A stretch of DNA of 64,000 bases from Gramella sp. MAR_2010_147. GTDB taxonomy: Bacteria > Bacteroidota > Bacteroidia > Flavobacteriales > Flavobacteriaceae. The translations under genes were made by a program, and so were the position numbers. This document shows, piece by piece, positions 48,416-64,000 of this stretch. Within the stretch, counting starts at the first letter, position 1, and every line of letters begins with the position of its first letter. The stretch spans positions 1,860,001 to 1,924,000 of the forward strand of contig NZ_LT629741.1 in NCBI RefSeq assembly GCF_900105135.1. Direction: 5' to 3'. The notes beneath the pieces were generated by a model that searched no databases, had not been told where the DNA came from, and worked only from the letters and a program-made list of their open reading frames with translations.

Positions 48416-50791
48416 TCATTTTTTAACTATCGCATTTTTTAAACTAAAATAGAACGTGGTTCCCTTACCAATTTCACTCTCCAGCCAGATCTTTCCATTA
48501 TAAAGCTCTATAATTTTTTTTACAATACTCAATCCAATCCCGCTGGACATATCGTTGTTTCCTAGTGACCTGAAAATTTTAAATATTTTATCATGGTCTT
48601 CTGGAGCGATTCCAATGCCGTTGTCTTTAACCGAAAAAATATAGGCAGAGCCATTTTGGGTATGATCTATTTCAATTCGCCCATCTTTTTTATTACTATA
48701 GTTTATAGCATTTCCCAGCAAATTCTGAAAAAGTTGCTGCATTCTTGTCGCATCGGCAACAATTTCCGGCAATGGCTTACAAACCGAAATCTCAATATGT
48801 TTAGGAACATAAAGCATCTCCTGTACCTCTTCTAATAATGTGTTTAGATCTATTCTTCTATTATCTACCCGGTCGCTATCAATGCTTGAATATTTAAGGA
48901 TATTTTCAATAAGATGATCCATTTTTTCAATCCGGGTTTGCATGAGGTCTAAATTGGTAAGACTTTCCTCCCCTAGCTGATTTCTAAAATCTTCTTTTGT
49001 CCAGCTTAATAATGCTGAAATATTCCTCAAAGGAGATTTAAGATCATGACTTACAATATGCGCATATTCATTGAGTTGTTCATTTTGCCGCTCAAGATTT
49101 TGAAGCAGGCGCTCTTTTTGTATTTCCAGGTTTTTTTGCCTCGTAATATCCAGGTGAATAAGTATAAAACCCTGTTGCTCCCCGTTTATATCAAAATTTG
49201 GAGCACCACTTACCAGCCAGTATCTCTTTTTTCCTGTTTTAGTCTTGATTTTAACTTCAAATGGTTCAGAAATAAACATCCCCAAATTCATAAAATTCTG
49301 TACCCTGTCTGATTCCTCTTGATAATTAAAAACCTCAGAAACCGATTTACCTAACAATTCTTCCTGATCGTAGCCACTTAAATCAGTAAAACTTTGATTC
49401 GCTAGTAATACAATGCCTTCGTTACTTACTTCCAGTAAGCCAAGGTTCATGTTTGCTATAATATTACTATATTTTTCCTTTTGAGACTTAAGTGTATCCT
49501 TGTAATTCTTTTGCAGCGTAATGTCATTAAAACTCCATAAATGACCTTTGTAAGTGCCTTCTATATACACAGGAGTATAATTTCTTTCTAAAATTCTGCC
49601 ATCGGCAAGTTCCAGTTCTTCTCCAACTACACGAACTTTTCTTTTTAATACATCTTGCATCCGGCTCATAAAATGTGTTGGATCCTTAAAATAATCCATA
49701 AAGTTTTCAGCGCTATTTTTCAGGTTCGTGCCTTCCAACTCTTCTGGAGTTACCCCCATCTCGAACATGCTACAACACATTTCATTTACAAGTAGAACGT
49801 TGCGCTCTTCATCTTCAAGCAAAACACCGGTCTGAAGATTTTTCACAAGACTTGATAAACGTTCTTCAGATTCCTTTACCTTCTGCTTGGTTTGTAGATC
49901 GCTGGTTACATCTTCAATAATCGCAATTTGAAACTTAATATTGTTCTTTTCATCACGAACGGCAGAGACTGATGTTTTTGCCCAGATACTATTTTTATCT
50001 TTTGTAATGTATTTTTTTTCGAGACTAAAAGATTCGATTTCTGCATTTTTTAATCGAGACAGATAGGTCGCGGTCGTTTCATGATCATCCTTATGGGTGA
50101 TTTGCTTAATACCCAGTGGCATTAACTCCTCTTCAGAATATCCCAGCATAGTACAAAAAGCCTTATTTACTTTTGTAAACCCGGTTCTCCCAGGTTCCAT
50201 AAGTGTAATTCCCAGGGGGGAGTTATCAATAATAATATCTAACTGACTTTTTTGTTCATTTAACTTCTCTTTGGTGAGTGTTTCTTCAGTTATATCTCTA
50301 ACAATACCCTGCGCGGCTTTAGGCTTCCCCTCGGGATCATAAATTATGGAAGCATTTATCTGGACTGTTTTTTCCTGATTATTCTTCGTAAGAATTACGG
50401 CTTTATAATTAGAAAAAGATCCTATATAAAAAAGCTGTTTAAACGCCTCTACGGTGTATGATTTATAATCGGGATGTACAAGATCAAGTAAATTTATATT
50501 TTCTGAAACATCAAATCCCAGTAATTCTTTGGCAGGATTGTTCATTCGTAATACCAAACCATCGATATCCATCACCACATATGCGTCGCTAATGTTTGAA
50601 AATACACCTTCTAATTCAGAGGTCTTTTCAGTGAGCAGCTGTTGTAATTGTTCACTAGATTGTTTCAAAGCTTCAGAAAGGTCAAAAAGCTTTCTGGATT
50701 TTTTTTCGAGATTTCTTTCGGCTATTATTCGTGCAGACTTTTCCTTTTTCAGCCTAAGTTCTAATTCGTTAATTCTTTCGGTTAAGTCCAT
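48416..50791 (-). CDS. Soluble multi-PAS sensor histidine kinase
   Basis: 791 residues. An N-terminal coiled coil (about 1-60) is followed by four PAS domains (about 60-170, 183-300, 310-425 and 437-555), a HisKA domain with H582 in HIVSHDLKSPLRN, and an HATPase domain. The ATPase domain has NLLGNAINYSN, DNGIGIAPED and SSGIGLSIVKK. No membrane helix is present, so it senses an internal cue such as redox state, light or a ligand; which one is not shown. It heads an operon with Hpt and the LytTR regulator. Confidence 0.93.
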   Translation of the reverse strand: MDLTERINELELRLKKEKSARIIAERNLEKKSRKLFDLSEALKQSSEQLQQLLTEKTSELEGVFSNISDAYVVMDIDGLVLRMNNPAKELLGFDVSENINLLDLVHPDYKSYTVEAFKQLFYIGSFSNYKAVILTKNNQEKTVQINASIIYDPEGKPKAAQGIVRDITEETLTKEKLNEQKSQLDIIIDNSPLGITLMEPGRTGFTKVNKAFCTMLGYSEEELMPLGIKQITHKDDHETTATYLSRLKNAEIESFSLEKKYITKDKNSIWAKTSVSAVRDEKNNIKFQIAIIEDVTSDLQTKQKVKESEERLSSLVKNLQTGVLLEDEERNVLLVNEMCCSMFEMGVTPEELEGTNLKNSAENFMDYFKDPTHFMSRMQDVLKRKVRVVGEELELADGRILERNYTPVYIEGTYKGHLWSFNDITLQKNYKDTLKSQKEKYSNIIANMNLGLLEVSNEGIVLLANQSFTDLSGYDQEELLGKSVSEVFNYQEESDRVQNFMNLGMFISEPFEVKIKTKTGKKRYWLVSGAPNFDINGEQQGFILIHLDITRQKNLEIQKERLLQNLERQNEQLNEYAHIVSHDLKSPLRNISALLSWTKEDFRNQLGEESLTNLDLMQTRIEKMDHLIENILKYSSIDSDRVDNRRIDLNTLLEEVQEMLYVPKHIEISVCKPLPEIVADATRMQQLFQNLLGNAINYSNKKDGRIEIDHTQNGSAYIFSVKDNGIGIAPEDHDKIFKIFRSLGNNDMSSGIGLSIVKKIIELYNGKIWLESEIGKGTTFYFSLKNAIVKK

Positions 50792-50974: not shown

Positions 50975-51394
50975 TTACCCGCTAACGTTAATAAGCTCAT
51001 TCTGGCTCCAATAATCTATTAACGCTTTGAGCTTCACCTCGTAATCTTCAAATTTAAAAGGCTTAATGATATAGCCCGCAATCCCGATCTTATAACATTC
51101 TAACACATCTTTTCTGTTATTGGAAGTTGTCAGGATAATTACCGGTAAGTATTTTAACTGATTATCGCTCTTTAGAATTCTTAGAAATTCTATCCCGGAG
51201 ATTTTAGGCATGTTAAGATCCAGAAGAAGAATATCAGGCAGGGGATCTCCAGATTGGAGCTGTTCAATAGCTTCTTCTCCATTTTTCGCCTCTATAATTT
51301 TCGGGACGTTTGGAAGCAAAGCAACGGTGCGACGTAACTTCATCACTTCTATAGCATCATCTTCTATAAAGAGAATATTCAATCTTTTGGACAT
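50975..51394 (-). CDS. Single-domain (CheY-like) response regulator
   Basis: 139 residues, a bare receiver. Acidic residues E11-D13 (FIEDDA), phosphoacceptor D59 (LLLDLNMPKISG), T90 and K111 (IIKPFKFEDY) are all present, so it should accept phosphate. With no output domain it probably acts by protein contact or as a relay between the kinase and Hpt. It is 183 bases upstream of the kinase gene on the same strand and divergent from the giant repeat protein gene. Confidence 0.92.
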   Translation of the reverse strand: MSKRLNILFIEDDAIEVMKLRRTVALLPNVPKIIEAKNGEEAIEQLQSGDPLPDILLLDLNMPKISGIEFLRILKSDNQLKYLPVIILTTSNNRKDVLECYKIGIAGYIIKPFKFEDYEVKLKALIDYWSQNELINVSG

Positions 51395-51691: not shown

Positions 51692-54600
51692 ATGGATAAA
51701 CCATTACCCCCCTATTTTTCCAATTTTGGAAAAAACACCCTTATTTTTTGTTTTTTATTTTTTGCCATATTTTCATTAAATGCGCAAACTAAAGGACTTA
51801 TATATAAGCAGGCTGCTGGTAGTGGCCAAACAGTATTAGATCCAAATACAGACGGTTATTCCTCTGAAACCAATCAGGGATTTTTTGAAAATGATGAAAC
51901 AGAGAGTGAAATTCCTTACACTGCCCTTCCTTCTGTAGGTGCTTCCGAACCTGATAGTGATTTAGGACCGGGACCGGATTGTAAGTTTACAGACCTTGTA
52001 AAATCTGAAAATAATAATACGGTTTATACCTATCTGGACGGTACTGGCAATCTAATGTTCCGTTTTCGGCTAGGTGGCACCGCAGAAAACTCTAAAGGAT
52101 ATTCGATTCTTATAGATACCGATCAAAAATTTGGCGCTAGTGGTGAAAATGCTGACCCTAATTACATCCCTGGCAATCCGGGGTTTGAAATAGAAGTTGT
52201 TCTAAGAACGAATTTTGGTGTGGGTTTATACGACATAGATGGAACGGTTTCTCCTGTTGAAGTGGGAGATGCGGTTACAGACAGGCCTTACGATAATTTT
52301 GCCCAAAAGAGTATTGCCCTTTCAGAAATTTGCGGGGATGATGATTACTTTTATGATTTCTACATTCCTTTTGCAGATATTACCGCAGCTTTTCCTTCTG
52401 TCACAGTAAATACTCCGCTGAGAATGGTAGGAAACACAGTAATTAACCCAAAAGCTGCTACTGGGAATAATGGAATATCTGATTTGGGTGGTATTGATGA
52501 TAGTACCGGAATAACCGATGGTTTATGGGAAGAGCTTATCAATGTATTTCCACCAACCAGTGTTACTGAAATTGGATCTGGAGCTACATTACCTCCGAGA
52601 GCTGCCTGCCCATCCATCACAGGCCCTATCGCAGTAGATGCTACCTCTATTACCGGAACCTCTTCTGAAGTTGATGGTGCAACGATCGAAGTTTTTCGCG
52701 ATGATGTATCAGTGGGAACTACCACGGTGAGTGCCGGAAACTGGACCCTTTCTGGATTAAGTCCTGCAGTAGGAAATGAAGTCTTCTCTGCAACTGCAAA
52801 GGTTTCCGCAGCTACAGCCGATTCAACAGGAACTGAAGAAAAATCTGCATCCTATTCAGATTGTAATAAAACTACTGTAGGAGCTACATGTTCGAATCCA
52901 CCTGATGTGGCTGGTACAGAGAACGGGTCAAAAAAAGCATTTGAAGGTACTTCCAGTGCTTCAGGTAGTTATGAATTAACAATATATAATTCAGACGGTA
53001 CAAAACTAGTTTCTCCTGCTGGAACTAGCAACCCGGCAACGTACACCACTTCCAGCTGGGTTTGGGAATATGGGCGTGGAGGGACTAAAATCCCAGCCGG
53101 AGTTTATTATTTTACAGTGACTGAAACTGGTAAATGTGAATCTTCAAAAACAGAATTTTGTTTTGATACAGCTACCTTTTCCTCGGCTCCAGTAATTTCT
53201 AATACCCCTATATTAGAATCAGACACCAGTATTTCTGGTACTGCAACTACAGGAGCTACAATAACGCTACTCATCAATGGAGAAGAACAAGGCGTTGATA
53301 TAGCAAGTGGTGGAAACTGGAGTTTTAGTGTTTCTGGTTTGTCCCAGGGAGATGAATTAACTATTAGGGCGATCGAAAGCGGAAATTGTAGTGCAGAAAC
53401 AAGTGTTACTGTAAGTGCAAAATCTGATGCTCCTATAGTAAGGGGCGAATATTGTCTTGCCGGAGGAATGACGGTAAACACAGTGAATGGTGTATCATCA
53501 GAAGACGCAGGGTCAGAAATTAATATTTACTCAAGTCCAACGCAGGGTGGGATGAAAAGTCTGGAGGGAACTACAAATGTTCAGTCAAATGGTTCCTGGT
53601 CTGCAGACGGCTTAAATATCCTTATTGGCAGATATATTACTGCAACCGCACAGAACACTGGAGAAATTGTAAGTGAATTTTCAAATGAAGTTTTAGTAAG
53701 AAGCAAAACTCCTTCACCAAATCTTAAAATCACTTCAGATCCAATAACAGAAGGTGATGCGAGTATAACGGGCGAAGCTCTAGCTAGTACCAGTGTTGAG
53801 TTAACCATCCAGCTATATATGGATGGTGTTGCTATAGAAGGTGCCACAGCAACAGTAAATCCCGTAGTTGGCGTAGCATCGGTTCAGGAGTGGACAATTA
53901 CCGGTTTAGACACCCCTTTCAACAAATTATATGCAGGTGGAGTTGCGACGGTCACTGTTACCAGTCCTACGATAGGCTTTTGCGAAAGTGATCCCTCCAA
54001 TGCCGTAACTGTACAGTGTAAACAGCCAGCCTCACAAGTATTTAGTGCAACAACAAGTACTACGGTGTGCCAGAACGAAACAATCTCATTTCAGGTAAAC
54101 GATACGGAAGAAAATATAGTTTACGAACTTATAGATCAAACCGATGCTGGAGTAGGACCGGCCATGCTTGGTACAGGATCTTCTATTTCACTTACTAGTT
54201 TCGGATTAAATACCTCAGTGACAGGAATCAGAATCCGTGCACAAAAGATCGGAATAGACTGCGATAGAATTATTCTACCCTCAGTTTCAGTTACGGTAAA
54301 TCCTTTACCAGCTATTACTCTGGGTGCAAATCCCATAATAAACGATAGTGAAACTTCAGCATTTATTAGTTATACAAATGCTGTAAATGATCCTGCAAAC
54401 TATGTATTAGATTTTGATTCATCTGCTAACTCAGCGGGCTTTACAGACATTACAACACCTACAAATCTACCCGCATCACCAATTGAGATTTTGGTACCAG
54501 GCACAGCATCTGGGGGGACATACAATGGAGTTATAAAAGTATTAAATACCACCACCGGATGCATTTCTGGAAATATTCCTTTTAGTATTACTATAGATGC

Positions 54601-57600
54601 ATCGGCTCCTCCGGCAATCAATTTCACTATAGACCCAATCAATGATATTATCATAAATGAGAACACAGCCTATACCGGACCTACGCCGGTTCTTTCTGGA
54701 GATACACCGGTTGGGACAGTAACTTATACTTTGGCCGGAGAAGATGCAGGTGACTTTACGATAAATTCTAGTACCGGGGTGGTGAGCATGGTGGCCCGTG
54801 ATTTTGAAAACCCAGTAGATGATGATACTAATAATACCTATGAATTAATTGTTATCGCAACAGATGAAGATAGCAATACCGATAGTGAAGCATGGGCAGT
54901 TGAAATTTCAGATATCAATGAGGCTCCTGCCATTACAAATAACGGCAGTGCTGCCACCCATTCAGTAGACTTTGCTGAAAATGGAACTGGTAACGTGATC
55001 GACTGGGATGCGACTGATGCTGATGGGGATGACCTGACGTATTCTTTAAGCGGAGCCGATGCTGCTCTATTTGATTTAGATACTAATACAGGTGAACTTA
55101 GCTTTAAATCAGCGCCTGATTTTGAAGGCAGTGGGGATAATCAATATGAAGCCATTGTTACTGTAAGTGACGGAACCTTTTCCGATACTCAGACCCTGAC
55201 GGTCAATGTCACCGATCAGACGGAAGCAGCTGATTTTACTATCGATGCTATTGGAGATGCTACCGTAAATGAGAACAGTGCCTATACCGGGCCTGCTCCG
55301 AGTTTATCAGGCGATGCTCCTGTTGGAAGTGTAACCTATACCATCACCGGGGCTGATGCTGCCCTGTTCGAGGTCAATGAAGATACCGGGGTGGTGACCA
55401 TGACCGAAAAGGATTTTGAGAACCCAGCCGATGCCAATTCCGATAATGTCTATGAAGTAACCCTGGTAGCGACCGATAGTGACGGGAATACCGATGCTGA
55501 ATCATGGAGTGTCACGGTTGAAAATGTTGCTGAAGCAGTAAGCTTTAGCATTGATCCGATTGCCGATGCTACAGTAAATGAGAATAGCGCTTACACCAGT
55601 GAGACCCCATCCATTACCGGAGGTCCGATTGGAACTGTAACCTATAGCCTGAGTGGTGATGATGCTGATGACTTTACCATCAACGCCAGCACTGGGGTAG
55701 TAAGCATGGTCGCCAGAGATTTTGAGTCTCCGGTGGATGCTGATACCGATAATGTATATGAGGTGACCATTACTGCTACCGATTCTGATGGAAATACTGA
55801 TTCTGAATCATGGAGTGTAAGTGTCACCGATCAGACGGAAGCAGCTGACTTTACCATCGATGCTATTGGAGATGCTACCGTAAATGAGAACAGCGCCTAT
55901 ACCGGGCCTACTCCGAGTTTATCAGGTGATGCTCCTATTGGAAGTGTAACCTATACCATCACCGGGGCTGATGCTGCCTTGTTCGAGGTCAATGAAGATA
56001 CCGGCGTGGTGACCATGACCGAAAAGGATTTTGAGAACCCCGCCGATGCCAATACCGATAATGTCTATGAAGTAACCCTGGTAGCTACCGATAGTGACGG
56101 GAATACCGATTCCGAATCATGGAGTGTCACGGTTGAAAATGTTGCTGAAGCAGTAAGCTTTAGCATTGATCCGATTGCCGATGCTACAGTAAATGAGAAT
56201 AGCGCTTACACCAGTGAGACCCCATCCATTACCGGAGGTCCGATTGGAACTGTAACCTATAGCCTGAGTGGTGATGATGCTGATGACTTTACCATCAACG
56301 CCAGTACCGGGGTGGTAAGTATGATCGCCAGAGATTTTGAAGCTCCGGTGGATGCTGATACCGATAATGTATATGAAGTAACCATTACCGCGACCGATTC
56401 TGATGGAAATACTGATTCTGAATCATGGAGTGTAAGTGTCACCGATCAGACGGAAGCAGCTGACTTTACCATCGATGCTATTGGAGATGCTACCGTAAAT
56501 GAGAACAGCGCCTATACCGGGCCTACTCCGAGTTTATCAGGTGATGCTCCTGTTGGAAGTGTGACCTATACCATCACCGGGGCTGATGCTGCCCTGTTCG
56601 AGGTCAATGAAGATACCGGGGTGGTCACTATGACCGAAAAGGATTTTGAGAACCCCGCCGATGCCAATTCCGATAATGTATATGAAGTAACCCTGGTAGC
56701 GACCGATAGTGACGGGAATACCGATGCTGAATCATGGAGTGTCACGGTTGAAAATGTTGCTGAAGCAGTAAGCTTTAGCATTGATCCGATTGCAGATGCC
56801 AGTATAGCAGAGAACAGCGCTTATACCAGTGAGACCCCATCCATTACCGGAGGTCCGATTGGAAGTGTAACCTATAGCCTGAGTGGTGATGATGCTGATG
56901 ACTTTACCATCAACGCCAGTACCGGGGTGGTAAGTATGATCGCCAGAGATTTTGAAGCTCCGGTGGATGCTGATACCGATAATGTATATGAAGTAACCAT
57001 TACCGCGACCGATTCTGACGGGAATAAAGATTCTGAATCCTGGAGCGTAAGTGTGACCGATCAGACGGAAGCAGCTGATTTTACTATCGATGCTATTGCG
57101 GATGCTACCGTAAATGAGAACAGTGCCTATACCGGGCCTGCTCCGAGTTTATCAGGTGATGCTCCTGTTGGAAGTGTGACCTATACCATCACCGGGGCTG
57201 ATGCTGCCCTGTTCGAGGTCAATGAAGATACCGGGGTGGTCACTATGACCGAAAAGGATTTTGAGAACCCGGCCGATGCCAATTCCGATAATGTATATGA
57301 AGTAACCCTGGTAGCTACCGATAGTGACGGGAATACCGATGCTGAAGCATGGAGTGTCACGGTTGAAAATGTTGCTGAAGCAGTAAGCTTTAGCATTGAT
57401 CCGATTGCAGATGCCAGTATAGCAGAGAACAGCGCTTATACCAGTGAGACCCCATCCATTACCGGAGGTCCGATTGGAAGTGTAACCTATAGCCTGAGTG
57501 GTGATGATGCTGATGACTTTACCATCAACGCCAGTACCGGGGTGGTAAGTATGATCGCCAGAGATTTTGAAGCTCCGGTGGATGCTGATACCAATAATGT

Positions 57601-60600
57601 ATATGAAGTAACCATTACCGCGACCGATTCTGATGGAAATACTGATTCTGAATCATGGAGTGTAAGTGTCACCGATCAGACGGAAGCAGCTGACTTTACC
57701 ATCGATGCTATTGGAGATGCTACCGTAAATGAGAACAGCGCCTATACCGGGCCTACTCCGAGTTTATCAGGTGATGCTCCTGTTGGAAGTGTGACCTATA
57801 CCATCACCGGGGCTGATGCTGCCCTGTTCGAGGTCAATGAAGATACCGGGGTGGTCACTATGACCGAAAAGGATTTTGAGAACCCCGCCGATGCCAATTC
57901 CGATAATGTATATGAAGTAACCCTGGTAGCGACCGATAGTGACGGGAATACCGATGCTGAATCATGGAGTGTCACGGTTGAAAATATAGCTGAAGCGGTA
58001 AGCTTTAGCATTGATCCGATTGCCGATGCTACCGTAAATGAGAACAGCGCTTATACCAGTGAGACCCCATCCATTACCGGAGGTCCGATTGGAACTGTAA
58101 CCTATAGCCTGAGTGGTGATGATGCTGATGACTTTACCATCAACGCCAGTACCGGGGTGGTAAGTATGATCGCCAGAGATTTTGAAGCTCCGGTGGATGC
58201 TGATACCGATAATGTATATGAAGTAACCATTACCGCGGCCGATTCTGATGGAAATACTGATTCTGAATCATGGAGTGTAAGTGTCACCGATCAGACGGAA
58301 GCAGCTGACTTTACTATCGATGCTATTGGAGATGCTACCGTAAATGAGAACAGCGCCTATACCGGGCCTACTCCGAGTTTATCAGGTGATGCTCCTGTTG
58401 GAAGTGTGACCTATACCATCACCGGGGCTGATGCTGCCCTGTTCGAGGTCAATGAAGATACCGGCGTGGTCACTATGACCGAAAAGGATTTTGAGAACCC
58501 CGCCGATGCCAATTCCGATAATGTATATGAAATAACCCTGGTAGCTACCGATAGTGACGGGAATACCGATGCTGAAGCATGGAGTGTCACGGTTGAAAAT
58601 GTTGCTGAAGCAGTAAGCTTTAGCATTGATCCGATTGCAGATGCCAGTATAGCAGAGAACAGCGCTTATACCAGTGAGACCCCATCCATTACCGGAGGTC
58701 CTATTGGAAGTGTAACCTATAGCCTGAGTGGTGATGATGCTGATGACTTTACCATCAACGCCAGTACCGGGGTGGTAAGCATGGTCGCCAGAGATTTTGA
58801 GTCTCCGGTGGATGCCGATACCGATAATGTATATGAAGTAACCATTACCGCGACCGATTCTGACGGGAATAAAGATTCTGAATCCTGGAGCGTAAGTGTG
58901 ACCGATCAGACGGAAGCAGCTGATTTTACTATCGATGCTATTGCGGATGCTACCGTAAATGAGAACAGTGCCTATACCGGGCCTGCTCCGAGTTTATCAG
59001 GTGATGCTCCTGTTGGAAGTGTGACCTATACCATCACCGGGGCTGATGCTGCCCTGTTCGAGGTCAATGAAGATACCGGGGTGGTCACTATGACCGAAAA
59101 GGATTTTGAGAACCCGGCCGATGCCAATTCCGATAATGTATATGAAGTAACCCTGGTAGCTACCGATAGTGACGGGAATACCGATGCTGAAGCATGGAGT
59201 GTCACGGTTGAAAATGTTGCTGAAGCAGTAAGCTTTAGCATTGATCCGATTGCAGATGCCAGTATAGCAGAGAACAGCGCTTATACCAGTGAGACCCCAT
59301 CCATTACCGGAGGTCCTATTGGAAGTGTAACCTATAGTCTGAGTGGTGATGATGCTGATGACTTTACCATCAACGCCAGTACCGGGGTGGTAAGTATGAT
59401 CGCCAGAGATTTTGAAGCTCCGGTGGATGCCGATACCGATAATGTCTATGAAGTAACCATTACCGCGACCGATAGTGACGGAAATAAAGATTCTGAATCA
59501 TGGAGTGTAAGTGTCACCGATCAGACGGAAGCAGCTGATTTTACCATCGATGCTATTGGAGATGCTACCGTAAATGAGAACAGTGCCTATACCGGGCCTG
59601 CTCCGAGTTTATCAGGTGATGCTCCTGTTGGAAGTGTGACCTATACCATCACCGGGGCTGATGCTGCCCTGTTCGAGGTCAATGAAGATACCGGGGTGGT
59701 CACTATGACCGAAAAGGATTTTGAGAACCCCGCCGATGCCAATTCCGATAATGTATATGAAGTAACCCTGGTAGCTACCGATAGTGACGGGAATACCGAT
59801 GCTGAAGCATGGAGTGTCACGGTTGAAAATGTTGCTGAAGCAGTAAGCTTTAGCATTGATCCGATTGCAGATGCCAGTATAGCAGAGAACAGCGCTTATA
59901 CCAGTGAGACCCCATCCATTACCGGAGGTCCGATTGGAAGTGTAACCTATAGCCTGAGTGGTGATGATGCTGATGACTTTACCATCAACGCCAGTACCGG
60001 GGTGGTAAGTATGATCGCCAGAGATTTTGAAGCTCCGGTGGATGCTGATACCGATAATGTATATGAAGTAACCATTACCGCGACCGATTCTGATGGAAAT
60101 ACTGATTCTGAATCATGGAGTGTAAGTGTCACCGATCAGACGGAAGCAGCTGACTTTACCATCGATGCTATTGGAGATGCTACCGTAAATGAGAACAGCG
60201 CCTATACCGGGCCTACTCCGAGTTTATCAGGTGATGCTCCTGTTGGAAGTGTGACCTATACCATCACCGGGGCTGATGCTGCCCTGTTCGAGGTCAATGA
60301 AGATACCGGGGTGGTCACTATGACCGAAAAGGATTTTGAGAACCCCGCCGATGCCAATTCCGATAATGTATATGAAGTAACCCTGGTAGCGACCGATAGT
60401 GACGGGAATACCGATGCTGAATCATGGAGTGTCACGGTTGAAAATATAGCTGAAGCGGTAAGCTTTAGCATTGATCCGATTGCCGATGCTACCGTAAATG
60501 AGAACAGCGCTTATACCAGTGAGACCCCATCCATTACCGGAGGTCCGATTGGAACTGTAACCTATAGCCTGAGTGGTGATGATGCTGATGACTTTACCAT

Positions 60601-63600
60601 CAACGCCAGTACCGGGGTGGTAAGTATGATCGCCAGAGATTTTGAAGCTCCGGTGGATGCTGATACCGATAATGTATATGAAGTAACCATTACCGCGGCC
60701 GATTCTGATGGAAATACTGATTCTGAATCATGGAGTGTAAGTGTCACCGATCAGACGGAAGCAGCTGACTTTACTATCGATGCTATTGGAGATGCTACCG
60801 TAAATGAGAACAGCGCCTATACCGGGCCTACTCCGAGTTTATCAGGTGATGCTCCTGTTGGAAGTGTGACCTATACCATCACCGGGGCTGATGCTGCCCT
60901 GTTCGAGGTCAATGAAGATACCGGCGTGGTCACTATGACCGAAAAGGATTTTGAGAACCCCGCCGATGCCAATTCCGATAATGTATATGAAATAACCCTG
61001 GTAGCTACCGATAGTGACGGGAATACCGATGCTGAAGCATGGAGTGTCACGGTTGAAAATGTTGCTGAAGCAGTAAGCTTTAGCATTGATCCGATTGCAG
61101 ATGCCAGTATAGCAGAGAACAGCGCTTATACCAGTGAGACCCCATCCATTACCGGAGGTCCTATTGGAAGTGTAACCTATAGCCTGAGTGGTGATGATGC
61201 TGATGACTTTACCATCAACGCCAGTACCGGGGTGGTAAGCATGGTCGCCAGAGATTTTGAGTCTCCGGTGGATGCCGATACCGATAATGTATATGAAGTA
61301 ACCATTACCGCGACCGATTCTGACGGGAATAAAGATTCTGAATCCTGGAGCGTAAGTGTGACCGATCAGACGGAAGCAGCTGATTTTACTATCGATGCTA
61401 TTGCGGATGCTACCGTAAATGAGAACAGTGCCTATACCGGGCCTGCTCCGAGTTTATCAGGTGATGCTCCTGTTGGAAGTGTGACCTATACCATCACCGG
61501 GGCTGATGCTGCCCTGTTCGAGGTCAATGAAGATACCGGGGTGGTCACTATGACCGAAAAGGATTTTGAGAACCCGGCCGATGCCAATTCCGATAATGTA
61601 TATGAAGTAACCCTGGTAGCTACCGATAGTGACGGGAATACCGATGCTGAAGCATGGAGTGTCACGGTTGAAAATGTTGCTGAAGCAGTAAGCTTTAGCA
61701 TTGATCCGATTGCAGATGCCAGTATAGCAGAGAACAGCGCTTATACCAGTGAGACCCCATCCATTACCGGAGGTCCTATTGGAAGTGTAACCTATAGTCT
61801 GAGTGGTGATGATGCTGATGACTTTACCATCAACGCCAGTACCGGGGTGGTAAGTATGATCGCCAGAGATTTTGAAGCTCCGGTGGATGCCGATACCGAT
61901 AATGTCTATGAAGTAACCATTACCGCGACCGATAGTGACGGAAATAAAGATTCTGAATCATGGAGTGTAAGTGTCACCGATCAGACGGAAGCAGCTGATT
62001 TTACCATCGATGCTATTGGAGATGCTACCGTAAATGAGAACAGTGCCTATACCGGGCCTGCTCCGAGTTTATCAGGTGATGCTCCTGTTGGAAGTGTGAC
62101 CTATACCATCACCGGGGCTGATGCTGCCCTGTTCGAGGTCAATGAAGATACCGGCGTGGTCACTATGACCGAAAAGGATTTTGAGAACCCCGCCGATGCC
62201 AATTCCGATAATGTATATGAAGTAACCCTGGTAGCGACCGATAGTGACGGGAATACCGATGCTGAATCATGGAGTGTCACGGTTGAAAATATAGCTGAAG
62301 CGGTAAGCTTTAGCATTGATCCGATTGCCGATGCTACCGTAAATGAGAACAGCGCTTATACCAGTGAGACCCCATCCATTACCGGAGGTCCTATTGGAAG
62401 TGTAACCTATAGCCTGAGTGGTGATGATGCTGATGACTTTACCATCAACGCCAGTACCGGGGTGGTAAGTATGATCGCCAGAGATTTTGAGTCTCCGGTG
62501 GATGCCGATACCGATAATGTATATGAAGTAACCATTACCGCGACCGATTCTGACGGGAATAAAGATTCTGAATCCTGGAGCGTAAGTGTGACCGATCAGA
62601 CGGAAGCAGCTGATTTTACTATCGATGCTATTGCGGATGCTACCGTAAATGAGAACAGTGCCTATACCGGGCCTGCTCCGAGTTTATCAGGTGATGCTCC
62701 TGTTGGAAGTGTGACCTATACCATCACCGGGGCTGATGCTGCCCTGTTCGAGGTCAATGAAGATACCGGGGTGGTCACTATGACCGAAAAGGATTTTGAG
62801 AACCCGGCCGATGCCAATTCCGATAATGTATATGAAGTAACCCTGGTAGCTACCGATAGTGACGGGAATACCGATGCTGAAGCATGGAGTGTCACGGTTG
62901 AAAATGTTGCTGAAGCAGTAAGCTTTAGCATTGATCCGATTGCAGATGCCAGTATAGCAGAGAACAGCGCTTATACCAGTGAGACCCCATCCATTACCGG
63001 AGGTCCGATTGGAAGTGTAACCTATAGCCTGAGTGGTGATGATGCTGATGACTTTACCATCAACGCCAGTACCGGGGTGGTAAGTATGATCGCCAGAGAT
63101 TTTGAAGCTCCGGTGGATGCTGATACCGATAATGTATATGAAGTAACCATTACCGCGACCGATTCTGATGGAAATACTGATTCTGAATCATGGAGTGTAA
63201 GTGTCACCGATCAGACGGAAGCAGCTGACTTTACCATCGATGCTATTGGAGATGCTACCGTAAATGAGAACAGCGCCTATACCGGGCCTACTCCGAGTTT
63301 ATCAGGTGATGCTCCTGTTGGAAGTGTGACCTATACCATCACCGGGGCTGATGCTGCCCTGTTCGAGGTCAATGAAGATACCGGGGTGGTCACTATGACC
63401 GAAAAGGATTTTGAGAACCCCGCCGATGCCAATTCCGATAATGTATATGAAGTAACCCTGGTAGCGACCGATAGTGACGGGAATACCGATGCTGAATCAT
63501 GGAGTGTCACGGTTGAAAATGTTGCTGAAGCAGTAAGCTTTAGCATTGATCCGATTGCAGATGCCAGTATAGCAGAGAACAGCGCTTATACCAGTGAGAC

Positions 63601-64000
63601 CCCATCCATTACCGGAGGTCCGATTGGAAGTGTAACCTATAGCCTGAGTGGTGATGATGCTGATGACTTTACCATCAACGCCAGTACCGGGGTGGTAAGT
63701 ATGATCGCCAGAGATTTTGAAGCTCCGGTGGATGCTGATACCGATAATGTATATGAAGTAACCATTACCGCGACCGATTCTGACGGGAATAAAGATTCTG
63801 AATCCTGGAGCGTAAGTGTGACCGATCAGACGGAAGCAGCTGATTTTACTATCGATGCTATTGCGGATGCTACCGTAAATGAGAACAGTGCCTATACCGG
63901 GCCTGCTCCGAGTTTATCAGGTGATGCTCCTGTTGGAAGTGTGACCTATACCATCACCGGGGCTGATGCTGCCCTGTTCGAGGTCAATGAAGATACCGGG
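51692..64000 (+). CDS. Giant secreted cadherin-repeat protein, 3' end outside the window
   Basis: The frame runs from the ATG at 51692 to the window edge: 4,103 codons without a stop. A signal peptide (TLIFCFLFFAIFSLNAQ) is followed by an N-terminal region (to about residue 970). This holds Ig-like units such as SITGTSSEVDGATIEVF and SISGTATTGATITLLING. Cadherin-like domains start near residue 977, and from residue 1178 two alternating types (103 and 102 residues) repeat. Calcium-site features are visible: NEN, ATDSDGNTD and DADTDN. Such proteins act in surface adhesion or gliding, often exported by the type IX system, but the C-terminal sorting signal is not in view. It is divergent from the signalling cluster. 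Confidence 0.93.
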   Translation, partial: MDKPLPPYFSNFGKNTLIFCFLFFAIFSLNAQTKGLIYKQAAGSGQTVLDPNTDGYSSETNQGFFENDETESEIPYTALPSVGASEPDSDLGPGPDCKFTDLVKSENNNTVYTYLDGTGNLMFRFRLGGTAENSKGYSILIDTDQKFGASGENADPNYIPGNPGFEIEVVLRTNFGVGLYDIDGTVSPVEVGDAVTDRPYDNFAQKSIALSEICGDDDYFYDFYIPFADITAAFPSVTVNTPLRMVGNTVINPKAATGNNGISDLGGIDDSTGITDGLWEELINVFPPTSVTEIGSGATLPPRAACPSITGPIAVDATSITGTSSEVDGATIEVFRDDVSVGTTTVSAGNWTLSGLSPAVGNEVFSATAKVSAATADSTGTEEKSASYSDCNKTTVGATCSNPPDVAGTENGSKKAFEGTSSASGSYELTIYNSDGTKLVSPAGTSNPATYTTSSWVWEYGRGGTKIPAGVYYFTVTETGKCESSKTEFCFDTATFSSAPVISNTPILESDTSISGTATTGATITLLINGEEQGVDIASGGNWSFSVSGLSQGDELTIRAIESGNCSAETSVTVSAKSDAPIVRGEYCLAGGMTVNTVNGVSSEDAGSEINIYSSPTQGGMKSLEGTTNVQSNGSWSADGLNILIGRYITATAQNTGEIVSEFSNEVLVRSKTPSPNLKITSDPITEGDASITGEALASTSVELTIQLYMDGVAIEGATATVNPVVGVASVQEWTITGLDTPFNKLYAGGVATVTVTSPTIGFCESDPSNAVTVQCKQPASQVFSATTSTTVCQNETISFQVNDTEENIVYELIDQTDAGVGPAMLGTGSSISLTSFGLNTSVTGIRIRAQKIGIDCDRIILPSVSVTVNPLPAITLGANPIINDSETSAFISYTNAVNDPANYVLDFDSSANSAGFTDITTPTNLPASPIEILVPGTASGGTYNGVIKVLNTTTGCISGNIPFSITIDASAPPAINFTIDPINDIIINENTAYTGPTPVLSGDTPVGTVTYTLAGEDAGDFTINSSTGVVSMVARDFENPVDDDTNNTYELIVIATDEDSNTDSEAWAVEISDINEAPAITNNGSAATHSVDFAENGTGNVIDWDATDADGDDLTYSLSGADAALFDLDTNTGELSFKSAPDFEGSGDNQYEAIVTVSDGTFSDTQTLTVNVTDQTEAADFTIDAIGDATVNENSAYTGPAPSLSGDAPVGSVTYTITGADAALFEVNEDTGVVTMTEKDFENPADANSDNVYEVTLVATDSDGNTDAESWSVTVENVAEAVSFSIDPIADATVNENSAYTSETPSITGGPIGTVTYSLSGDDADDFTINASTGVVSMVARDFESPVDADTDNVYEVTITATDSDGNTDSESWSVSVTDQTEAADFTIDAIGDATVNENSAYTGPTPSLSGDAPIGSVTYTITGADAALFEVNEDTGVVTMTEKDFENPADANTDNVYEVTLVATDSDGNTDSESWSVTVENVAEAVSFSIDPIADATVNENSAYTSETPSITGGPIGTVTYSLSGDDADDFTINASTGVVSMIARDFEAPVDADTDNVYEVTITATDSDGNTDSESWSVSVTDQTEAADFTIDAIGDATVNENSAYTGPTPSLSGDAPVGSVTYTITGADAALFEVNEDTGVVTMTEKDFENPADANSDNVYEVTLVATDSDGNTDAESWSVTVENVAEAVSFSIDPIADASIAENSAYTSETPSITGGPIGSVTYSLSGDDADDFTINASTGVVSMIARDFEAPVDADTDNVYEVTITATDSDGNKDSESWSVSVTDQTEAADFTIDAIADATVNENSAYTGPAPSLSGDAPVGSVTYTITGADAALFEVNEDTGVVTMTEKDFENPADANSDNVYEVTLVATDSDGNTDAEAWSVTVENVAEAVSFSIDPIADASIAENSAYTSETPSITGGPIGSVTYSLSGDDADDFTINASTGVVSMIARDFEAPVDADTNNVYEVTITATDSDGNTDSESWSVSVTDQTEAADFTIDAIGDATVNENSAYTGPTPSLSGDAPVGSVTYTITGADAALFEVNEDTGVVTMTEKDFENPADANSDNVYEVTLVATDSDGNTDAESWSVTVENIAEAVSFSIDPIADATVNENSAYTSETPSITGGPIGTVTYSLSGDDADDFTINASTGVVSMIARDFEAPVDADTDNVYEVTITAADSDGNTDSESWSVSVTDQTEAADFTIDAIGDATVNENSAYTGPTPSLSGDAPVGSVTYTITGADAALFEVNEDTGVVTMTEKDFENPADANSDNVYEITLVATDSDGNTDAEAWSVTVENVAEAVSFSIDPIADASIAENSAYTSETPSITGGPIGSVTYSLSGDDADDFTINASTGVVSMVARDFESPVDADTDNVYEVTITATDSDGNKDSESWSVSVTDQTEAADFTIDAIADATVNENSAYTGPAPSLSGDAPVGSVTYTITGADAALFEVNEDTGVVTMTEKDFENPADANSDNVYEVTLVATDSDGNTDAEAWSVTVENVAEAVSFSIDPIADASIAENSAYTSETPSITGGPIGSVTYSLSGDDADDFTINASTGVVSMIARDFEAPVDADTDNVYEVTITATDSDGNKDSESWSVSVTDQTEAADFTIDAIGDATVNENSAYTGPAPSLSGDAPVGSVTYTITGADAALFEVNEDTGVVTMTEKDFENPADANSDNVYEVTLVATDSDGNTDAEAWSVTVENVAEAVSFSIDPIADASIAENSAYTSETPSITGGPIGSVTYSLSGDDADDFTINASTGVVSMIARDFEAPVDADTDNVYEVTITATDSDGNTDSESWSVSVTDQTEAADFTIDAIGDATVNENSAYTGPTPSLSGDAPVGSVTYTITGADAALFEVNEDTGVVTMTEKDFENPADANSDNVYEVTLVATDSDGNTDAESWSVTVENIAEAVSFSIDPIADATVNENSAYTSETPSITGGPIGTVTYSLSGDDADDFTINASTGVVSMIARDFEAPVDADTDNVYEVTITAADSDGNTDSESWSVSVTDQTEAADFTIDAIGDATVNENSAYTGPTPSLSGDAPVGSVTYTITGADAALFEVNEDTGVVTMTEKDFENPADANSDNVYEITLVATDSDGNTDAEAWSVTVENVAEAVSFSIDPIADASIAENSAYTSETPSITGGPIGSVTYSLSGDDADDFTINASTGVVSMVARDFESPVDADTDNVYEVTITATDSDGNKDSESWSVSVTDQTEAADFTIDAIADATVNENSAYTGPAPSLSGDAPVGSVTYTITGADAALFEVNEDTGVVTMTEKDFENPADANSDNVYEVTLVATDSDGNTDAEAWSVTVENVAEAVSFSIDPIADASIAENSAYTSETPSITGGPIGSVTYSLSGDDADDFTINASTGVVSMIARDFEAPVDADTDNVYEVTITATDSDGNKDSESWSVSVTDQTEAADFTIDAIGDATVNENSAYTGPAPSLSGDAPVGSVTYTITGADAALFEVNEDTGVVTMTEKDFENPADANSDNVYEVTLVATDSDGNTDAESWSVTVENIAEAVSFSIDPIADATVNENSAYTSETPSITGGPIGSVTYSLSGDDADDFTINASTGVVSMIARDFESPVDADTDNVYEVTITATDSDGNKDSESWSVSVTDQTEAADFTIDAIADATVNENSAYTGPAPSLSGDAPVGSVTYTITGADAALFEVNEDTGVVTMTEKDFENPADANSDNVYEVTLVATDSDGNTDAEAWSVTVENVAEAVSFSIDPIADASIAENSAYTSETPSITGGPIGSVTYSLSGDDADDFTINASTGVVSMIARDFEAPVDADTDNVYEVTITATDSDGNTDSESWSVSVTDQTEAADFTIDAIGDATVNENSAYTGPTPSLSGDAPVGSVTYTITGADAALFEVNEDTGVVTMTEKDFENPADANSDNVYEVTLVATDSDGNTDAESWSVTVENVAEAVSFSIDPIADASIAENSAYTSETPSITGGPIGSVTYSLSGDDADDFTINASTGVVSMIARDFEAPVDADTDNVYEVTITATDSDGNKDSESWSVSVTDQTEAADFTIDAIADATVNENSAYTGPAPSLSGDAPVGSVTYTITGADAALFEVNEDTG
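55223..64000 (+). repeat. Tandem array of 615-bp units encoding paired cadherin domains
   Basis: Fourteen complete 615-bp units plus a partial fifteenth run to the window edge. Each encodes a type A domain (starts EAADFTIDAI, 103 residues) and a type B domain (starts EAVSFSIDPI, 102 residues). Copies differ only at scattered sites, such as DATVNENS against DASIAENS in type B and TDSES against KDSES. Many differences are silent and shared between units, so the array is kept similar at the DNA level. Confidence 0.96.
57594..62154 (+). repeat. Recent four-unit (2,460-bp) block duplication inside the array
   Basis: Compared line by line, 57594-59694 and 60054-62154 appear identical over 2,101 bases at an offset of 2,460 (4 x 615). 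The first differences are at 57593/60053 and 59695/62155. Rare variants such as ATTACCGCGGCC at 58231/60691 occur in both copies, so the block was copied as a whole. Confidence 0.88.

Follow-up and report, generated by a model that had tools for sequence, protein, structure and literature searches.

The stretch of DNA analysed here (the window, 64,000 nucleotides) comprises bases 1,860,001-1,924,000 of the single-contig, 3,158,483-bp genome of Gramella sp. MAR_2010_147, of the genus Christiangramia (formerly Gramella). It ends within a giant adhesin gene on the forward strand, which is real and intact. A sequence-only reading of the window had found the frame open to the last base and had suggested that the protein may exceed 5,000 residues. 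Both points are borne out by the flanking genome sequence: no stop lies right after base 64000, and the frame runs on to a stop codon 4,026 nt past the window end, giving a complete product of 5,444 amino acids (aa) with a mass of 563.6 kDa, a calculated pI of 4.05, 19 cysteines and 1 histidine. We consider it likely that this product is a surface-anchored, periscope-like type B adhesin of the type IX secretion system (T9SS), which would be static and would serve attachment, plausibly to polysaccharide.

In the list of open reading frames the frame is open from ATG 51635 to base 64000. ATG 51692, 19 codons downstream, is the better start and is followed by a signal peptide. From the N- to the C-terminus, the order of parts is signal peptide, a head of about 940 aa, two lead-in cadherin-like domains, an array of alternating A and B cadherin domains, Big_9, six repeats, TSP3 repeats and a T9SS type B sorting domain. 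The parts are listed below, all on the + strand; those beyond the window are given in L009 coordinates, which are window positions minus 50000.

51692..51787, +: start codon and signal peptide, aa 1-32, ending ..SLNAQ, called by sequence inspection and by a matching N-terminus in the relative G022
51788..52696, +: N-terminal domain, aa 33-335 as modelled, a predicted CBM74/CBM9/DOMON-like beta-sandwich and the proposed tip
52592..54601, +: remaining conserved head, aa ~301-970, with several immunoglobulin (Ig)-like domains (weak Big_6; limits set by eye), which relatives share along with domain 1
54620..55231, +: two lead-in cadherin-like domains, aa 977-1180, found with the array's own hidden Markov model (140.6 and 23.7 bits)
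55232..64000 (aa 1181-4103, the part in the window), continuing to L009:15377, +: cadherin array A(BA)x16, aa 1181-4562, from repeat analysis, Pfam and predicted fold
L009:15369-15626, +: Big_9, from profile search
from L009:15639, +: six 94-aa repeats matching He_PIG/Big models, from profile search
about L009:17331-17690, +: TSP3 repeats, from profile search
L009:17745-18023, +: T9SS type B sorting domain (TIGR04131 and CHU_C); the adhesin stop codon ends at L009:18026
L009:18036-18944, +: PorP/SprF-like carrier gene, 302 aa, no cysteine, ending SSPRFF (PF11751, TIGR03519)

The second repeat array and the dedicated carrier lie beyond the window and were thus outside the view of the earlier reading. 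Pfam names such as L544_helical, PAD_N and UBX, which arose from summed weak repeat scores without any significant single stretch, were ignored.

The array consists of 17 A domains (103 aa) and 16 B domains (102 aa) in strict alternation, 33 in all. The 14 full two-domain units that had been counted in the window are correct and form part of this larger array. Identity between A and B is about 60%, against averages of 97.6% among the A copies and 96.4% among the B copies. At the DNA level, identity among the 16 complete A-B units ranges from 93.3 to 100% (mean 96.6%). Tandem Repeats Finder independently detects the repeat between 55207 and 64000, with a period of 306 bp, 28.6 copies and a score of 7706; an array of this kind is no product of chance. 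The codon variants within the array comprise 37 synonymous and 18 non-synonymous ones (pN/pS about 0.15), and therefore the protein sequence of the array appears to be constrained.

Such a high degree of identity raises the question of whether the array length is an assembly artefact, the real protein being shorter or longer. Five of the 120 unit pairs are 100% identical, and units 5-7 recur base for base as units 9-11. The protein database gives 3,158,583 rather than 3,158,483 bases for the contig, a 100-base difference that might reflect a gap, and the contigs of several relatives end within the homologous gene. An artefact is nevertheless improbable, considering that the genome is one contig with the frame intact across all 33 domains, and that the relative G007, of the same genus and also a single contig, has the same design with other counts.

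G007 displays the same A-B alternation in 15 domains, so this order, which the sequence-only reading had called unusual, is not unique to the adhesin. Its 7 units are 86.4% identical in DNA among themselves and 79.1% identical to the adhesin units, against 96.6% within the adhesin. The units are thus more alike within each genome than between the genomes, and each lineage has homogenised or re-amplified its copies on its own. The A domains of G007 are 77% identical to those of the adhesin, closer than adhesin A is to adhesin B; therefore the A-B pair predates the split of the species. The number of cadherin domains differs between the species (33 versus 15), and the second array runs the opposite way, with six repeats in the adhesin and more in G007 (12, by a simple motif count). 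This comparison of repeat number is between species only; the second C. forsetii record is a partial one, 100% identical.

That the units are cadherin-like, as had been proposed, is supported by both sequence and predicted fold. The Pfam Cadherin family (PF00028) matches with 617 bits against a cut-off of 28.8, over 16 stretches. A model of an A-B-A piece has a mean predicted local distance difference test score (pLDDT) of 87.2 and a predicted template-modelling score (pTM) of 0.52, and all 50 of the Foldseek matches listed for it belong to the cadherin superfamily, the best with E 1.3e-19. In view of the pTM and of two poor models among the five (scored 43), inter-domain angles and calcium geometry were left uninterpreted.

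With respect to calcium, the motifs give a divided answer. The glutamate of NEN/AEN, DFE and the DSD aspartates are kept in all 33 domains, but DxNDN occurs in none, and the DxD position holds one aspartate in A and none in B. The linker aspartate is present in all 16 B domains and is an asparagine in all 17 A domains. DFE presumably corresponds to LDRE/LDFE, and xEx, LDRE, DxD, xDx and DxNDN are taken by us to be the calcium-ligand motifs. On this basis the calcium site of the array domains would be reduced. In comparison with extracellular cadherin (EC) domains (PF00028; the cadherin-23 and CELSR1 structures), the array shares the sequence family and the predicted fold, with the LDRE-equivalent and the glutamate retained, and differs in the absence of DxNDN and the replacement of DxD.

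The general plan resembles that of the periscope proteins SasG, Rib, Sgo_0707 and CdrA, which, as far as the available text of PMC8201768 describes them, have an N-terminal functional region, to which the proposed tip would correspond, and likewise a stalk of highly identical folded domains and a surface anchor. The adhesin differs from these in its A-B cadherin pairs, in its T9SS carrier anchor, and in that a change of repeat number is seen only between species. By the logic of such proteins, the near-identical DNA units may let intragenic recombination alter the length of the stalk.

The head of 940 aa is conserved as a unit, with 36-94% identity in 13 relatives. The earlier reading had found no clear match for the region before the repeats and had supposed that it may hold the functional tip or anchor. 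The searches agree on the lack of a match, and the region could be such a tip. No Pfam or NCBIfam family is matched by the N-terminal domain (Pfam at E ≤ 1 on the domain; also with the head and the domain alone). Among the 38 members of the alignment, Pfam finds Big_6 in seven and other families in 1 to 3 members each (E 0.0012 or worse), with a CBM_56 match in a single member (E 0.021). In the remaining head, a Big-type Ig domain is indicated by Big_6, one of the families that the earlier reading had advised searching for, but its score of 21.1 bits lies under the cut-off of 27.6. A sequence search of the PDB with the single protein as query yielded nothing convincing for the N-terminal domain, and the sole match of a PDB profile search falls in a later Ig domain. 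The N-terminal ~300 aa are shared by 775 proteins; in one homologue search of the protein database, scoring was limited to the 1,090 candidates with the most words in common. In a scan of 395 sampled genomes of the class, 16 including this one match the domain at E ≤ 1e-10, some of them over a short length.

Two further head matches were noted in relatives. In Pontibacter aydingkolensis (L055, 14726-15370), a second, weaker match to the N-terminal domain (39% identity) lies just past the first protein, and in a Bacteroidetes metagenome-assembled genome (L053, 14575-22929) the next long frame matches head residues 866-968 only. These are either tandem relatives or broken frames.

The model of the N-terminal domain has a pLDDT of 89.3 and a pTM of 0.88, and its nearest folds are sandwiches of the CBM74/CBM9/DOMON type (CBM, carbohydrate-binding module), the likeness being moderate. 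By predicted fold the domain resembles CBM74 of Sas6, CBM9, the DOMON cytochromes and the C-terminal domains of glucodextranase; a sequence relation to any of these was not detected. A haem-binding DOMON was considered and rejected, since histidine, which could serve as the haem ligand, is absent from the domain. A literature search on DOMON in T9SS adhesins gave nothing on topic by title and abstract. Judging from the model, the N-terminal sandwich is probably a ligand-binding tip, possibly a sugar-binding one.

The moderate likeness to carbohydrate modules also leaves room for the view that the fold is a mere scaffold and that the head acts by protein-protein contact, either cell-cell or homophilic in the manner of cadherins. 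Self-association between cells could come about through the 33 near-identical cadherin domains, and a head conserved as a unit over 940 aa is larger than a small lectin requires. We regard such protein contact as rather unlikely, and favour attachment through the sandwich.

The relatives suggest that head and stalk are separable. Where this head and a type B end are both present in a complete locus (six cases), the protein measures 2,026 to 5,444 aa. The same head and end are found with MopE repeats in G011, with TSP3 repeats in Croceitalea (L047) and with weak Ig-type signals only in Aquimarina (L052), and the stalk of G016 has 30 cadherin domains of a different subtype. In Pontibacter, a homologue (L054) carries a type A sorting domain at its end; tallies of type A and type B ends over the homologue matches listed were made by reading the tables. 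In the genome itself, two copies of a 4.85-kb anchor cassette, 98.1% identical, lie some 16 kb from each other, each following a different giant adhesin gene:

550282-555130 (L039) and 566020-570869 (L040) of the genome: anchor cassettes, each with HYR repeats, a type B sorting domain and the same PorP/SprF protein, behind open frames of 4,097 and 2,561 aa

Taken together, the shared head and anchor with differing stalks and the duplicated cassette indicate that head and anchor are conserved units, while the stalk turns over. The N-terminal domain is the novel part of the adhesin, which otherwise belongs to a known kind, the giant, periscope-like T9SS type B adhesins.

The secretion signal that the earlier reading had advised looking for is present at the C-terminus, with TIGR04131 at 51.8 bits (cut-off 35) and CHU_C at 87.9 bits (cut-off 27). 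The carrier gene starts 9 nt after the adhesin stop (PF11751 303 bits, TIGR03519 299.7), and the same genome encodes SprA (2,796 bits), GldK (606.5) and GldJ (932.7), which makes a T9SS secretion route plausible. The type B domain and the dedicated carrier would secrete the fibre and anchor it on the cell surface. From the cell outward, the fibre would comprise the sorting domain, TSP3, six Ig-type repeats, Big_9, the 33-domain cadherin rod, two cadherin-like domains, the Ig-rich head and the sandwich tip, which may thus be held far from the cell. At about 4.5 nm per beta-domain, the 42 beta-domains give an estimated length of about 190 nm without the head.

This length is close to that of SprB of F. 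johnsoniae, about 200 nm in the part of PMC12635249 available. SprB, too, is a giant type B protein with its carrier gene, sprF, directly downstream (PMC12635249, PMC12618676 and PMC9143113, each in excerpt), and the initial idea was a gliding adhesin of this type, a fibre riding the GldJ/GldK track and pulling the cell, with the cadherin domains as a lever. The secretion class, the adjoining PorP/SprF gene, the comparable length and the presence of GldJ, GldK and SprA are all consistent with it. The carrier tail, however, is not. In the same excerpt of PMC12635249, SprF is bonded to GldK through a Cys-x-Cys (CxC) in its C-terminal tail, and with SprF lacking this motif SprB is still exported, sustained movement on the track is lost and brief track contacts remain. 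The carrier of the present adhesin has no cysteine at all; among the best 120 of its 7,999 homologues, CxC is found within the last 40 residues in none and an RFF end in 119. Likewise, in each of the six complete loci that combine the head with a type B end (L009, L032, L046, L034/L035, L047 and L052), a carrier lies directly downstream, lacks cysteine and ends PRFF. Placing the adhesin in the SprB gliding class is therefore unsupported, a role as a long surface adhesin is supported, and a static adhesin is predicted; gliding was dropped after this test of the tail, and we hold it to be quite unlikely. The comparison with SprB covers secretion class, gene order, length and carrier tail.

A carrier without CxC would leave the fibre off the gliding track, and from its tail the fibre is most likely stationary. 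A precedent may be seen in the type B adhesin Fjoh_3952 with its carrier Fjoh_3951, which, in the portion of PMC12618676 available, was static when tested, whereas others move. The present adhesin, also of type B with a dedicated carrier, is predicted to be static like Fjoh_3952. The two differ in that a PorE-like gene follows Fjoh_3951 and none was found directly beside the carrier here; this comparison covers the secretion class, the dedicated carrier and the neighbouring genes.

The distribution of CxC tails in the genus bears on the same question. The genome has five carriers, of which one has CxC; this one is located away from the adhesin, at 1.749 Mb, and has no type B domain nearby, which also argues against gliding of the present adhesin:

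1748963-1749838 of the genome (L026): lone CxC carrier ending CxCPAINN (or close), of a type that recurs across the genus in 22 further genomes (L089-L110)

A survey of 24 genomes of the genus gave 81 distinct carriers whose genes include a stop codon, and 23 of these have a CxC end; 6 of 88 rows were left out of this survey (four partial, three of them at the first bases of a contig, one with an internal stop and one weak). All 23 belong to a single carrier type, which is found once each in 23 of the 24 genomes and is missing from G021 alone (67% complete). A type B gene was flagged upstream of none of the 23 CxC carriers and of 24 of the 58 others, by a simple motif test that misses known cases; these counts are lower bounds, the carrier of G011 having been flagged negative though it follows its adhesin. 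By its tail and distribution, the L026 type is a candidate for the track-tethered carrier of the genus.

Two other loci of the genome touch on these carriers. An orphan type B sorting domain at 2888985-2889254 (L027) scores 109 bits, the best of five in the genome, in a 621-aa frame with no PorP/SprF match near; this protein is possibly a client of the orphan CxC carrier. At 2766414-2767223 (L025), a PorP-like carrier is flanked on one side by a type B adhesin (1,814-aa frame) and on the other by a gene whose end is OmpA-like, an arrangement similar to the PorE-linked operons of F. johnsoniae, the PorE likeness being by eye.

Upstream of the adhesin, two regulatory genes lie in the opposite orientation:

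50975..51394, -: response regulator, 139 aa, single-domain, divergent from the adhesin
48416..50791, -: PAS-domain histidine kinase, 791 aa, adjoining the response regulator (open reading frame and domain)

The gap between the response regulator and the adhesin start is about 300 bp. Judging by position, it is possible that this pair controls the fibre, a putative link.

Literature searches produced no paper on Gramella adhesins with cadherin and, judged from the listing, nothing matching giant cadherin T9SS proteins. The part of PMC9210967 available contains no mention of Bacteroidetes or cadherin.

A wider interpretation may be offered tentatively, although on balance we doubt it more than we believe it. 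The N-terminal ~300 aa may represent an unnamed family of carbohydrate-binding modules, serving as an interchangeable tip of Bacteroidota T9SS fibres, whose stalks may be of cadherin, MopE, TSP3 or Ig type and whose anchors may be of type A or type B. Here it would be carried by a length-variable, track-free and static periscope that probes glycans, distinct from the gliding adhesins, and the carrier tail, either CxC or PRFF, could act as a switch, readable from sequence, that sets moving fibres apart from fixed ones.

As to the ligands of giant T9SS adhesin tips and the question of which adhesins move, the present locus leads to two general predictions, namely a head family without annotation whose first domain is like a carbohydrate module, and a motif in the carrier tail that may split track-tethered from fixed adhesins. 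Since its head and anchor are conserved while the stalk turns over between related species, the locus also makes the evolution of stalks by recombination measurable with long reads.
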